Assembly (NCBI GenBank): GCA_903895195.1
Contig: CAITSZ010000029.1
Location: forward strand, 1-58,425
Reading direction: 5' to 3'
DNA: 58,425 bases
Source: an uncultured Chlorobiaceae bacterium
Lineage (GTDB): Bacteria; Bacteroidota; Chlorobiia; Chlorobiales; Chlorobiaceae
Below the pieces are notes generated by a model. The model did no database searches. It worked only from the letters and a program-made list of their open reading frames with translations, and was not told where the DNA came from. Position 1 is the stretch's first letter. Each line of letters starts with the position of its first letter. Of this stretch, positions 1-24,783 are shown in pieces. The position numbers and the translations under genes were made by a program.

Positions 1-1062
1 ATGGTGCGGGCAGTTCATCGGTTTAAGAAGATACTGCTCCTGCTTGCCGTCTTCATCGTGATAGGTCAGAGGCGGAAACTGCGAATCGCTGTAATACGGA
101 TAGTGGCCTGAACGCTTGTAGAGTTCAATATTGCCGATATGGGGAGTATAGACAGGCAGGTAGCCTCGCTTGCGCTGCTCCTCCTTTAAAAAAGACTCAA
201 GTTCATTACGGATTATGGCGCCGTTCGGCAGCCAAATCGGAAGACCGCTTCCAACCTCCGGGGTAAGCATAAAGAGCTCAAGTTCAGCACCAAGCTTCCG
301 GTGATCTCTTCGTTTAGCCTCTTCCATGCGGGTCACATACTCTTTCAGCAGTTTTTCCGATGGAAAGCTGATGCCGTAGATGCGCTGCATGTTTTCTCTT
401 GACGAATCGCCGCGCCAGTAGGAGGAGGAGATATTGGTCAAAAGAACTGCCTTGAGCTTCGAGGTTGTCGGCAGGTGAGGACCAATGCACAGATCGGTAA
501 AACCGTTCTGATGATAGAGTGAAACGGCGTCGACGTTTTTCAGGGTATCTTCAAGAATTTCAACCTTATAGGGGTCGGTTCTCGTATGCTTGAAAAACTC
601 TATGGCCGCTGTACGGGCCATCTCTTCCCGTTGAATATGTATGTCGCGTTGGCTTATCTCAAGCATTTTTGTCTCTATTGCGCGCAAATCCTCTTCGCGG
701 AAGCGGTGGAGCGATGCAACATCGTAATAGAAGCCCTGCTCTATAGATGGGCCGGCGCCGAATTTACTGCCGGGAAAAAGCTCTTCAATAGCCTGGGCCA
801 TGATATGGCTTGAGCTGTGCCAGAAAATATCTTTGCCGTCAGCTGAATCAAAGGTAATGATTTCAATCGCAGAGTCAGCGGTAACCGGGGCGGTCAGATC
901 AACAAGAGTAGCGTTAACCTTCAGCGCCAGGGCATCTTGCGCAAGTTTTCGTCCAATAGAAAGTGCAATATCCAGACCGGTACTGCCTGATGGGAATGAT
1001 TTAACTGTCCCGTCCGGCAGGGTAAGGGCTATCAAAGCCAGTTGTTCCTGATTTTCAGACAT
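1..1062 (-). CDS. thrS: threonyl-tRNA synthetase (5' part; continues off the window)
   Basis: Charges tRNA-Thr with threonine in the cytoplasm. Translation from the ATG at 1062 gives 354 codons without a stop and runs off the window edge. The first ~65 residues look like a TGS domain. An SAD editing domain follows, with its zinc-type motifs: HSSSH (HxxxH) and later CIGPH (CxxxH). The class II catalytic core then begins and the visible part ends at MNCPH, whose Cys is the known core zinc ligand. Start chosen because it matches the normal ThrRS N-terminus (MSENQEQLALI). The 3' end and the downstream neighbours are not visible. Confidence 0.96.
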   Translation of the reverse strand, partial: MSENQEQLALIALTLPDGTVKSFPSGSTGLDIALSIGRKLAQDALALKVNATLVDLTAPVTADSAIEIITFDSADGKDIFWHSSSHIMAQAIEELFPGSKFGAGPSIEQGFYYDVASLHRFREEDLRAIETKMLEISQRDIHIQREEMARTAAIEFFKHTRTDPYKVEILEDTLKNVDAVSLYHQNGFTDLCIGPHLPTTSKLKAVLLTNISSSYWRGDSSRENMQRIYGISFPSEKLLKEYVTRMEEAKRRDHRKLGAELELFMLTPEVGSGLPIWLPNGAIIRNELESFLKEEQRKRGYLPVYTPHIGNIELYKRSGHYPYYSDSQFPPLTYHDEDGKQEQYLLKPMNCPHH

Positions 1063-14602: not shown

Positions 14603-14677
14603 TCCGCGGTAGCTCAATGGTAGAGCATGCGACTGTTAATCGCAGGGTTGTAGGTTCGAGTCCTTCCCGCGGAGCCA
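14603..14677 (+). tRNA. tRNA-Asn (GUU)
   Basis: A cloverleaf can be folded by eye. The acceptor stem is TCCGCGG (14603-14609) with CCGCGGA (14667-14673). The D arm is GCTC...GAGC and the anticodon stem is TGCGA/TCGCA around CTGTTAA with anticodon GTT. The T arm has loop TTCGAGT, with one mismatch in its stem. Discriminator G and an encoded CCA (14675-14677) follow. The anticodon GUU reads Asn codons. Confidence 0.95.
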
Positions 14678-14680
14678 AAA

Positions 14681-14719
14681 AAGGAAGACCCTTCGAAAGG
14701 AGATCTTCCTTTTTTCTTT
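14681..14719 (+). terminator. rho-independent terminator after tRNA-Asn
   Basis: Stem AAGGAAGA (14681-14688) with TCTTCCTT (14704-14711), followed by a run of T. It lies immediately downstream of the tRNA CCA end. Confidence 0.85.
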
Positions 14720-15035
14720 TCTTACACATCCTCTTTATTTCTTTTTCCTGACTGTAACCGATTAACCTTATTGCTTTATCAGGATATTGGGGCATGCGTA
14801 TCTTACCTCTCCCGTATTCTTATTGAGAAGGATGACTGTTCGACTTCATTATTGCAGGTGCTAATAATCTATTCAGGCGGATAAAAGTGTTTGTACTTGG
14901 CGGAGCTGGTTTTGTTATCACTTAAGGCCTTGGGCAGTTCGCAGGAACAGAAAATGGTTTCGATAGTATTGCAAGCTGTAGCATTTTTTGTATTTTTACT
15001 ACATCAATATTGATTTTATCGACTGAATATTTGTA
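14720..15035 (+). other. noncoding leader/promoter region upstream of the leu leader ORF
   Basis: No convincing gene was found between the tRNA terminator and the leu leader ORF. A possible promoter lies at its end: TTGCAA (14969-14974), 16 bases, then TATTTT (14991-14996). That would place a transcript start about 30 bases before the leader ATG. The rest shows no clear structure. Confidence 0.35.
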
Positions 15036-15128
15036 ATGACCATGCGCATAGCGAACCTGAAGAACCTTCTGCTTACCCAGAGCCTGCTGCTCCGGAGTCT
15101 TTCGGCTCTAAGGGGAGGTGCTTTTTAG
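15036..15128 (+). CDS. putative leucine leader peptide (leuL-like)
   Basis: A 30-codon ORF upstream of leuA, too short for routine gene calling. It encodes nine leucines, including two Leu-Leu-Leu runs (codons 15066-15074 and 15084-15092), plus Leu at 15099 and 15108. The stop TAG is at 15126-15128. It may start at ATG 15036 or at the in-frame ATG 15042; neither has a clear Shine-Dalgarno site. The position before a terminator hairpin and the leucine biosynthesis gene fits a ribosome-stalling leader of the E. coli leuL kind. This is a prediction from arrangement and codon content; translation has not been shown. Confidence 0.75.
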   Translation: MTMRIANLKNLLLTQSLLLRSLSALRGGAF

Positions 15129-15193
15129 TTCGTTGTTATCGACAGAAATGACGTTGTTAAAGCCACCAGCCTCTTAGGGTTGGTGGCTTTTTT
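15076..15193 (+). promoter_or_regulatory. putative leucine attenuator with antiterminator and terminator hairpins
   Basis: Three competing pairings are visible. (1:2) AGAGCC 15079-15084 pairs with GGCTCT 15104-15109 inside the leader ORF. (2:3) GGTGCTTT 15117-15124 pairs with 15159-15167 (AAAGCCACC) with one bulged C, acting as antiterminator. (3:4) AAAGCCACCA 15159-15168 pairs with TGGTGGCTTT 15181-15190, extending inward to about 13 pairs and followed by T to 15193, a standard terminator. A ribosome stalled on the Leu codons would cover segment 1 and free segment 2 to form 2:3. A ribosome reaching the stop at 15126 would cover segment 2 and allow termination before leuA. Confidence 0.78.
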
Positions 15194-15227
15194 CATGTAA
15201 AAGGGAACAAAAGGAGAGTGACCGGCA

Positions 15228-16910
15228 ATGAAAAAGATGAATTATAAAAAATATGCAGCCTATCCTGCGGTTAATCTTACGGGAAGGAGCTGGCCTGACA
15301 ACACTATCACAAAAGCACCGAAATGGTGCAGCGTGGATCTTCGAGACGGCAATCAGGCTCTTCCTGTGCCAATGAGCGTTGAAGAAAAAGTCTCCATGTT
15401 TCAGCTTCTCGTCTCAGTGGGGTTCAAGGAAATCGAGGTCGGCTTTCCATCAGCTTCTGCTACTGAGTATGCATTTGTCCGCAGATTGATCAATGAAAAT
15501 CTGATTCCAGACGATGTTACCATTCAGGTGTTGACCCAGTCTCGTGAACACCTTATCAGAAAAACGTTTGACGCCATCAAGGGAGCGAAGCGGGCGATTG
15601 TGCACCTTTACAATTCGACCTCACAGTTGCAGCGGGATATTGTGTTTCGTAAAGACAAGAAGGAGATCAAAGCGATTGCTGTCGAGGGAACTGCTCTTGT
15701 TCGTCGCCTGAAAGATCAGTCGGGCAATGCAGGCATTCGCTTCGAGTACAGCCCTGAAAGTTTTACCGGTACCGAGCTCGACTATGCCCTTGAAGTCTGT
15801 CACGCAGTCATGGATACATGGGGAGCATCTTCGGATGAAAAAATCGTCCTCAATCTGCCATCAACGGTTGAAATGTCCCGCCCGAATATATACGCCGACC
15901 GGATCGAGTGGTTCTGCCGTCATATCAAAGATCGGGATGCTGTCCTTATAAGTGTTCATGCCCATAATGATCGTGGTACAGCAGTAGCAACTGCTGAATT
16001 AGCTCTTTTGGCCGGGGCAGATCGTATTGAAGGAGCTTTATTTGGAAATGGCGAACGCTGTGGCAACATGGATATCATAGTCATGGCATTGAATCTTTTC
16101 AGTCAGGGTGTTGATCCGGAACTTGATTTTTCCGATCTGCCACGGGTACGCGAGGTTTATCGCCGCTGTACCCGTCTGGATATTCATCCTCGCCATCCTT
16201 ATGCCGGAGAGCTTGTGTATACTGCTTTTTCCGGTTCTCATCAGGACGCGATCAGCAAAGGAATGAAAGCGCATGCCTTGTCCCCTGATGGGTTATGGGC
16301 TGTTCCTTATCTGCCAATCGATCCTCAGGATGTCGGTTGTACCTATGAGGCGATTGTTCGCATCAACAGTCAGTCCGGAAAAGGCGGAATGGCTTATGTG
16401 CTTGAGAAGGATTTCGGGATTCAGATTCCGAAATGGATGCAGCCCGATTTTGCCGAAGCTGTTCAGGCTGTTGCCGACACTACAGGTGAAGAGCTTTCGT
16501 CAGAGCAGATCCATGACCTTTTTCATACTGAGTATGTGAAACTCAAGGAACCTGTTACACTCAAAAAGTGTCATTTCAGCTGGGACGATGAGGATCCTCT
16601 ACGGAGCAATGAAGAGTCGACGACTATCAACTGCATCGTGCAGATGAGGGAGGAGGAATTCAGTTTTGAGGCCAGGGGCAACGGCCCTCTCGATGCGTTT
16701 GTCAAGGGCTTTATCAAGGAGAGTGGCCTTGAATTCAGCGTTGATGAATATGCCGAGCATGCTATCGGGCACAGCGCCAAGGCTCTTGCCATAGCATATA
16801 TCAAGATTGGCAGCGCTGATGGACGGATTGCATTTGGCGCAGGAATCGATTCAAATATCAGTCTTGCGTCCATCAAGGCCACGGTCAGTGCCCTGAACCG
16901 TCTGCCCTGA
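15228..16910 (+). CDS. leuA: 2-isopropylmalate synthase
   Basis: First committed enzyme of leucine synthesis: condenses acetyl-CoA with 2-oxoisovalerate. The 560-residue protein is the longer LeuA type, with start region RSWPDNTITKAPKWCSVDLRDGNQAL. A TIM-barrel domain carries the metal-binding motif HAHNDRGTA (about 244-252), and GNGERCGN follows. The C-terminal ~130 residues look like the LeuA regulatory domain, including ISLASIKATVSALNRL, so leucine feedback inhibition is expected. A strong AAGGAG ribosome site (15211-15216) supports the start; the in-frame ATG at 15237 is possible. It sits behind the putative leucine attenuator, so it may be regulated at both enzyme and transcript level. 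Confidence 0.95.
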   Translation: MKKMNYKKYAAYPAVNLTGRSWPDNTITKAPKWCSVDLRDGNQALPVPMSVEEKVSMFQLLVSVGFKEIEVGFPSASATEYAFVRRLINENLIPDDVTIQVLTQSREHLIRKTFDAIKGAKRAIVHLYNSTSQLQRDIVFRKDKKEIKAIAVEGTALVRRLKDQSGNAGIRFEYSPESFTGTELDYALEVCHAVMDTWGASSDEKIVLNLPSTVEMSRPNIYADRIEWFCRHIKDRDAVLISVHAHNDRGTAVATAELALLAGADRIEGALFGNGERCGNMDIIVMALNLFSQGVDPELDFSDLPRVREVYRRCTRLDIHPRHPYAGELVYTAFSGSHQDAISKGMKAHALSPDGLWAVPYLPIDPQDVGCTYEAIVRINSQSGKGGMAYVLEKDFGIQIPKWMQPDFAEAVQAVADTTGEELSSEQIHDLFHTEYVKLKEPVTLKKCHFSWDDEDPLRSNEESTTINCIVQMREEEFSFEARGNGPLDAFVKGFIKESGLEFSVDEYAEHAIGHSAKALAIAYIKIGSADGRIAFGAGIDSNISLASIKATVSALNRLP

Positions 16911-23337: not shown

Positions 23338-24783
23338 TTATTCAGCGTATGGCAAAATGGTTTTTTTATAGGCATCTTTTTCCAACTGTTGCTTTAAGTC
23401 ATTACGGGAGAGGCTGTAGAGGTGAGTGTAAAAAAGATTAAAGAGCAGGACTGCGGCTTTAGCGCTGGGAGCATTAACTCCTCTACTGATTGAGTTTTTT
23501 ATGGTGAAAATCTCTCTGGTAAGAGCGGAATAACTCTCTATAAAGCTGTCGAGCGGAATGTTTTTGGGAGTATAGAGCATTTCCTGACCGAAAGTATATC
23601 GGTAGGCGGTAATGTCGAGGGGATCAAACAGCAGCCGTCCCTCTTCCCTGAGTCGATCGAAAACTCTTGTTCCTGGAATGGGCCGAAGGATGTTGATGCC
23701 GGGAACATCAAGTTTTGTGTCGCTGATGAAATCAAGGATTGCAGCAGGAGTTTCAAGCGTATCGCCGTCGAGTCCGTATATAAAGCTCCCGTAGAGGCTT
23801 ATCCCCGAATTTCTGATGGTTTTAATGGACTGAGAAAGTTCGCTGGCTTTATTCTGGTTCTTTTTGTGAGCATTCCGGCTTGTTGTTTCTATGCTTTCTA
23901 TCCCCACCAGCAAAGCCTGACATCCCGAACGGGCAAAAGTTTCGAGCAGTTCCTGCTGCTTCCCGAGTGTCGTGGTGGCTTGGCCGAACCATTTGATTTT
24001 CAGGGGAGTAAGCTGCCCGAAAAGTTCACGGGCATAGGCCGGGTCGGCATTGATAGAATCGTCGACAAAAAAGAATATTCTACGGTCATGCGTTTTGAAT
24101 CGCGCAACTTCCGCGACAATATCGCTGATAGTTCTTCTGCGCAGGGTATGACCGTTGAGCACATGTACATTACAGAAGTCGCAGCTATGCTGACACCCGC
24201 GTCCTGTCTGGATAAGGTTGGTGGTAAAGTAGCGGCTGTTGATCAGTGATGTTTTCATCACAGGTCTTGAGAGTGCCAGATCAGGAAAACTATCGGATTG
24301 GTAATGTGGCTTGAGAGTGCATGTTGTAAGATCGGTAAGCACCTCTTTCCAAAGATCGTCAGCTTCGCCCACTACCAGAACATCGGCATGTGCTCTGCAC
24401 GATTCTGCAAAAAGAGTTACATGGGCACCTCCAAGTACTACAGTGATTCCCCGCGAACGGAGGGCGTCGGCCAGTGCAAACGCCTTTTTTGCCATTCCGG
24501 TCTGTACGCTGATGCCCACCAGATCCCATTTTTCTTTATAGGGGAACTCTTCAAACCGCATATCACAGATTGACTGCTCAACTCCCTGCACCTCAATAGA
24601 ACTGAGAATCATGAGAGAAAGCGGAGGGATAGCGAACTGGCTTTGCTTGATGACGTTTCTCAGCGAACGGTTGAACCATGAGAACAAGGCATTGCTATCA
24701 TTTTCGCTGTAGAGTGATCGAGCACCGTCCACGCCGCTTTCCGAAGGCAGAAAAACCAGCAGGACTTTTTTGGTTGCTTGCAT
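23338..24783 (-). CDS. B12-binding radical SAM protein
   Basis: A 481-residue protein. An N-terminal cobalamin-binding-like domain (about 5-150, with VGISVQTGMAKKAFALADALRS and VVLGGAHVTLF) precedes a radical SAM domain with GCQHSCDFC (Cys197, Cys201, Cys204), giving CxxxCxxC. Such proteins in green sulfur bacteria include enzymes of bacteriochlorophyll modification (BchE-like, BchQ, BchR), so a pigment role is possible. Reaction and substrate cannot be read from sequence. It ends 66 bases upstream of the lipid-anchored cytochrome and starts 3 bases after the TPR gene stop. Confidence 0.85.
   Translation of the reverse strand: MQATKKVLLVFLPSESGVDGARSLYSENDSNALFSWFNRSLRNVIKQSQFAIPPLSLMILSSIEVQGVEQSICDMRFEEFPYKEKWDLVGISVQTGMAKKAFALADALRSRGITVVLGGAHVTLFAESCRAHADVLVVGEADDLWKEVLTDLTTCTLKPHYQSDSFPDLALSRPVMKTSLINSRYFTTNLIQTGRGCQHSCDFCNVHVLNGHTLRRRTISDIVAEVARFKTHDRRIFFFVDDSINADPAYARELFGQLTPLKIKWFGQATTTLGKQQELLETFARSGCQALLVGIESIETTSRNAHKKNQNKASELSQSIKTIRNSGISLYGSFIYGLDGDTLETPAAILDFISDTKLDVPGINILRPIPGTRVFDRLREEGRLLFDPLDITAYRYTFGQEMLYTPKNIPLDSFIESYSALTREIFTIKNSISRGVNAPSAKAAVLLFNLFYTHLYSLSRNDLKQQLEKDAYKKTILPYAE

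Follow-up and report, generated by a model that had tools for sequence, protein, structure and literature searches.

A 2013 survey regarded amino acid attenuators as essentially gammaproteobacterial (PMC3766115), and a 2010 survey stated that, its own Firmicutes case aside, only Proteobacteria and Actinobacteria had been shown to have leader-peptide systems (PMC2965389). The ilv-leu attenuator of Staphylococcus aureus has a Leu-rich leader peptide that is conserved in the genus, a terminator, and a predicted antiterminator (PMC5794164). The actinobacterial LEU element has a leader open reading frame (ORF) with a Leu run before leuA but no terminator; its Leu run pairs with the Shine-Dalgarno (SD) sequence of leuA (PMC1262725). 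For Flavobacterium psychrophilum, a transcriptome study presents strong clues to leader peptides, with no leuA case in the passages considered here (PMC9723704).

We analyzed the region upstream of leuA in a 58,425-nucleotide stretch of DNA (the window) from an uncultured Chlorobiaceae bacterium, whose genome comprises 2.49 Mb in 49 contigs. A prediction made from the sequence alone had described an ORF at 15036 with nine Leu codons and two Leu-Leu-Leu runs, directly upstream of a strong terminator and leuA. The letters and coordinates all checked (Table 1). Read from ATG 15036, the ORF encodes MTMRIANLKNLLLTQSLLLRSLSALRGGAF, in which nine residues are Leu. The locus has regulatory codons for the amino acid that the pathway makes and a terminator between the leader ORF and the first structural gene, and the regulated gene encodes a leucine-pathway enzyme (TIGR00970). 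An SD-like AAAGGAG lies at ~15210-15217, just 5' of leuA. The same genome has a second leuA, of the bacterial type, on another contig, inside an ilvD-ilvB-ilvN-ilvC-leuB-leuA-leuC-cimA cluster. We consider it very probable (roughly 92%) that the leuA of the window is controlled by a leucine-responsive, ribosome-mediated transcription attenuator that senses charged tRNA-Leu.

Table 1. Features of the leuA leader region (positions in the window)
Feature	Position	Strand	Details
Predicted promoter	14969-14996	+	-35 TTGCAA 14969-14974, 16-nt spacer, -10 TATTTT 14991-14996
Leader ORF	15036-15128	+	ATG 15036, stop TAG 15126-15128; nine Leu codons; counterparts at 77 loci
Segment 1 (AGCGAAC), codons just 5' of the Leu runs	15050-15056	+	Partner 15128-15134; RNAalifold, swap test
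Leu run 1, CUU CUG CUU, predicted stall site	15066-15074	+	
Inner part of 1:2	15079-15109	+	Stem 15079-15084:15104-15109; consensus fold
Leu run 2, CUG CUG CUC, predicted stall site	15084-15092	+	
Segment 2, 5' strand of antiterminator, CUAAGGGGAGGUGCUUU	15108-15124	+	Falls in the final six sense codons of the ORF
GUUCGUU at stop codon	15128-15134	+	Partner is segment 1
Segment 3, terminator 5' arm and loop	15159-15177	+	Partner of segment 2 in the antiterminator
Intrinsic terminator (3:4)	15159-15190	+	14 bp, -22.9 kcal/mol, then U run to 15193
leuA, 2-isopropylmalate synthase, yeast-type, 560 aa	15228-16910	+	NCBIfam TIGR00970, 739 bits (cut-off 697)

Of 86 genomes of the family, 83 proved to have this leuA, and the upstream DNA was read at 83 loci. 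Two were left out, L027 (cut by a contig end) and L082 (partly cut), leaving 81 assessable loci. Named relatives of the window's leuA are from Chlorobium, Pelodictyon, and Chlorobaculum, and our labels Chlorobium (the genus of the window) and Chlorobaculum (the other genus of the family) are inferred from named leuA relatives. The original prediction had staked itself on conservation of the Leu-rich ORF in close relatives. Such an ORF, short and followed ~20-50 bases on by a terminator, was present together with the alternative pairings at 77 of the 81 loci, in both Chlorobium and Chlorobaculum. The 77 ORFs have a median length of 28 aa and a median of 8 Leu; 74 have at least five Leu, and 70 contain Leu-Leu-Leu. 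Among 20,000 dinucleotide shuffles, an ATG ORF 10-50 aa long and containing nine or more Leu arose 89 times, and one of that length with two Leu-Leu-Leu runs arose 11 times. The 30-codon ORF first proposed is real, but the conserved start is its second ATG, at 15042 (50 of 53 ungapped Chlorobium sequences), which gives 28 aa.

Leu is kept as an amino acid across these relatives by means of several synonymous codons. Among ~58 aligned Chlorobium sequences, the three codons of run 1 specify Leu in 48, 43, and 36, with synonymous variation, and those of run 2 do so in 54, 47, and 49, again through several synonymous codons. Variability within the ORF is highest at third codon positions (0.496 versus 0.406 and 0.388), and gaps in the alignment of the ORF are mostly multiples of three. 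This codon-level conservation supports the view that the leader ORF is translated. In 73 of 77 species, the leader ORF lacks a preceding SD-like tetramer, whereas leuA has one in 74 of 77; therefore, translation of the leader is not assured. The missing SD sequence would also suit a leucine-binding riboswitch, a T-box, or an RNA-binding protein that flips the hairpins, with the ORF as a mere by-product, and the same pairings would serve any sensor. However, conservation 5' of segment 2 takes the form of Leu codons that change synonymously and not of an invariant block of unpaired nucleotides. Furthermore, neither the Leu_leader family (RF00512), the T-box model, nor any other Rfam riboswitch or leader family matched near the site at E values up to 5. 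We regard a sensor of this kind as very unlikely.

The predicted promoter would place the transcription start at ~15003. The motif TTGCAR-15..17-TATWT is found upstream of 33 of 77 leaders, with 0.06 expected from shuffles. A leaderless start at the ORF was rejected because this conserved -35/-10-like motif places the start ~33 bases upstream. The terminator is the sole terminator-like site in a scan of 14660-15240, it has a counterpart upstream of the leuA SD sequence at all 77 leader-bearing loci, and the leader folds better than its shuffles (z -3.0). A tRNA-Asn gene (14603-14674) lies upstream, and the hairpin might be the ordinary terminator of an upstream transcript such as this one, with the Leu-rich ORF there by chance. 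Three loci (L042, L056, and L058) have kept the leuA terminator but lost the leader ORF along with the helices and antiterminator, and in L042 and L056 the terminator stands directly behind tRNA-Asn, as that explanation would have it. (L045 has neither leader nor terminator.) However, the tRNA gene is followed by an inverted repeat and a T run of its own (~14680-14720), the conserved promoter-like motif lies between it and the leader, and the Leu-rich ORF recurs with exclusive helices in 77 genomes of two genera. Chance association with a tRNA terminator is an extremely improbable explanation.

At E 1e-60, this leuA was found in none of 12 genomes from other families of the order, so the element is untraceable outside the Chlorobiaceae. 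The nearest leuA relatives found outside Chlorobiota are in Elusimicrobia (L153, 62% identical) and Omnitrophota (L156, 59%), a similarity that suggests gene transfer. Inspection by eye of the 300 bases 5' of leuA in these two and in Psychrobacter revealed no Leu leader.

Three stems had been proposed originally: 15079-15084:15104-15109, 15117-15124:15159-15167 (with one bulged C), and 15159-15168:15181-15190. All of them exist, but they are not mutually exclusive as listed because the first does not overlap the 2:3 strand at 15117-15124. That first stem is part of a real 1:2 structure, the outer helix of which had been missed. RNAalifold, given 58 Chlorobium sequences and no prior knowledge, returned this outer helix (15050-15056:15128-15134), which surrounds the Leu codons and shows co-variation among species. 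Inside it were 15066-15069:15115-15118, a helix that sequesters segment 2 within the 1:2 structure, and 15076-15084:15104-15114. When applied to the region that begins with segment 2 and ends with the terminator loop, RNAalifold returned the antiterminator. This has 16 bp (15108-15115:15170-15177, 15117-15120:15164-15167, and 15121-15124:15159-15162), so that segment 2 pairs with the entire 5' arm and loop of the terminator, and its duplex with segment 3 has an energy of -19.3 kcal/mol. Because the 2:3 helix reaches 15108 and the 1:2 structure gains the outer helix and the one that sequesters segment 2, the set is exclusive. At three Chlorobaculum-like loci (L065, L068, and L069), a 4-base gap shifts the reading frame, and the stop codon used, UGA, lies at the 5' edge of segment 2.

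Column-wise pair counts showed little excess over shuffles for conserved pairs. Therefore, we added a swap test, in which each species' strand was scored with its own partner and with the partners of all other species. Compensatory change in the stems had been put forward as a check on the original prediction, and matched partners did pair better. For 1:2, in which segment 1 pairs with bases 3' of the stop codon, mean energies were -13.8 kcal/mol with own and -12.2 kcal/mol with foreign partners (z -5.6; 0 of 20,000 permutations, in a test inflated by the shared ancestry of the sequences), and the preference was also seen within Chlorobium (z -4.1). For 2:3 in all species, they were -19.3 and -18.4 kcal/mol (z -3.3; 10 of 20,000 permutations, with the same inflation). 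This signal was seen between genera; within Chlorobium alone, 2:3 showed no partner preference (z -0.1). A control pairing of segments 1 and 3 showed no preference, and a second control went in the opposite direction. The 2:3 duplex was only moderately better than duplexes with shuffled segment 2 (median z -1.46). Both strands are conserved as well as G- or C-rich, which explains this moderate advantage and the lack of partner preference within Chlorobium. In the inner 1:2 structure, 20 double-change cells were counted over five pairs among the Chlorobium sequences. Compensation could also be found by eye: CUAAG:CUUAG in the window versus CUGAG:CUCAG in Chlorobaculum, CGGAA:UUCCG in L049 versus CAGAA:UUCUG in L038, and AACACAAA:UUUGUGUU in L018.

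We folded the window RNA at successive nascent lengths, with the ribosome footprint represented by a mask with an assumed edge. Untranslated nascent RNA formed the 1:2 structure and the terminator. With a mask to 15105, the antiterminator (-21.2 to -27.9 kcal/mol) formed before segment 4 was complete, whereas a mask to 15141 left only the terminator. Across species, the antiterminator was the minimum-energy fold before segment 4 in 70 of 76, and masking to 12 bases beyond the stop codon gave the terminator alone in all 76. The stop codon is within or near segment 2 at all 77 loci. Nascent folding reproduced the geometry first proposed, in which stalling frees segment 2 and reading to the stop covers it. 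Together, folding and comparison give an exclusive antiterminator freed by a stall, a stop codon at which the ribosome masks segment 2, and a 1:2 structure that hides segment 2. In the full-length RNA, the terminator was thermodynamically favored even with a stalled ribosome. Therefore, the switch has to work kinetically, as other attenuators do.

The full-length fold also has the U run paired with downstream bases around the leuA start region. This would fit a leader that acts not through termination but by gating the ribosome-binding site of leuA, the way the actinobacterial LEU element does. However, a complete terminator with its U run precedes the SD sequence at every leader-bearing locus, and the partner of the Leu runs is segment 2, not the SD sequence. 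We give translational control hardly any weight.

For the transcription attenuator that we favor, we infer that the ORF is translated, that transcription and translation are coupled, and that the leader responds to leucine. The leader ORF would be translated behind an RNA polymerase that had started at ~15003. With ample charged tRNA-Leu, the ribosome would reach the stop codon and cover the end of the ORF, namely segment 2; the terminator would then form, and transcription would stop. With scarce charged tRNA-Leu, it would stall on the Leu runs (15066-15092), disrupting 1:2 and freeing segment 2 to pair with the terminator's 5' arm and loop. This would block the terminator and allow leuA to be transcribed. 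Without translation, the 1:2 structure would form and transcription would terminate. The terminated RNA of ~190 nt would be small, structured, and conserved, but an additional action of it or of the peptide in trans has a negligible probability because the cis switch accounts in full for the codons and pairings that are conserved.

A second conserved leader ORF (L168:3756-3927; G000:C47, ~23755-23926) is found upstream of ilvD (L168:4044), at the head of the ilvD-B-N-C-leuB-leuA-leuC-cimA cluster. It is rich in Ile, Val, and Leu and ends in MIGFFVTVVISSLSIAVL followed by the stop codon. An ORF end rich in these residues occurs at about the same place in most of 30 family loci that were read upstream of ilvD. 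Downstream of the ORF, the conserved sequences GCCGNUCCCAAGUCC and GGCUUCGGGAACGGC pair together, and the terminator is weak. No leaders were seen before trpE, hisG, or the prephenate dehydratase gene of this genome. It is a tentative suggestion, at a little under even odds, that green sulfur bacteria have separate leader-peptide control of both leucine-synthase genes (Leu only for the yeast-type leuA and Ile/Val/Leu for ilvDB-ilvN-ilvC-leuB-leuA-leuC-cimA), with leader ORFs that start without an SD sequence and that evolved independently of the proteobacterial arrangement.

Attenuation at leuA would extend leader-peptide control to Chlorobiota, a phylum in which it is scarcely documented. It would imply coupling of transcription to translation in these phototrophs, and also the ability of a leader ORF that lacks an SD sequence to act as a sensor. 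The 77 aligned natural variants and the clean leader losses provide material on the evolution of such a switch.

We found no description of leucine attenuation in Chlorobi in the open-access literature searched. The abstract of Vitreschak et al. 2004 (FEMS Microbiol Lett 234:357) is said to mention attenuation candidates in "Bacteroidetes/Chlorobi," and a Chlorobium attenuator may already have been predicted there. For F. psychrophilum, which belongs to the same superphylum as Chlorobium but a different phylum, leader-peptide attenuation has been proposed in the portion of the work considered here. Like the Chlorobium locus, the LEU element places a leader ORF containing a Leu codon run 5' of leuA, but Chlorobium has a terminator, and its Leu runs are not paired with the SD sequence in the full fold. 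The S. aureus ilv-leu leader shares the Leu-rich peptide, terminator, and antiterminator. However, its gene is ilvD, its sequence is different, and its predicted antiterminator captures the poly-U tail, whereas that of Chlorobium captures the terminator 5' arm and loop. In the enteric attenuator layout, the stop codon lies between segments 1 and 2. Unlike in Proteobacteria, the Chlorobium stop codon is at the 3' end of segment 2, so the ORF ends in the antiterminator strand. Also unlike enteric leu, the Chlorobium leader has no SD sequence, and its target is a stand-alone yeast-type leuA in place of a leuABCD operon. Even so, it has what the proteobacterial attenuators have (leuL of E. coli and Salmonella, trpL, hisL, and ilvL): a short ORF rich in codons for the pathway amino acid, the 1:2, 2:3, and 3:4 pairings, and an intrinsic terminator before the first structural gene. 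The mechanism is a known one. Its member in Chlorobiota, an unusual lineage for it, has very strong comparative support and, although an earlier Chlorobium prediction is possible, is probably new.
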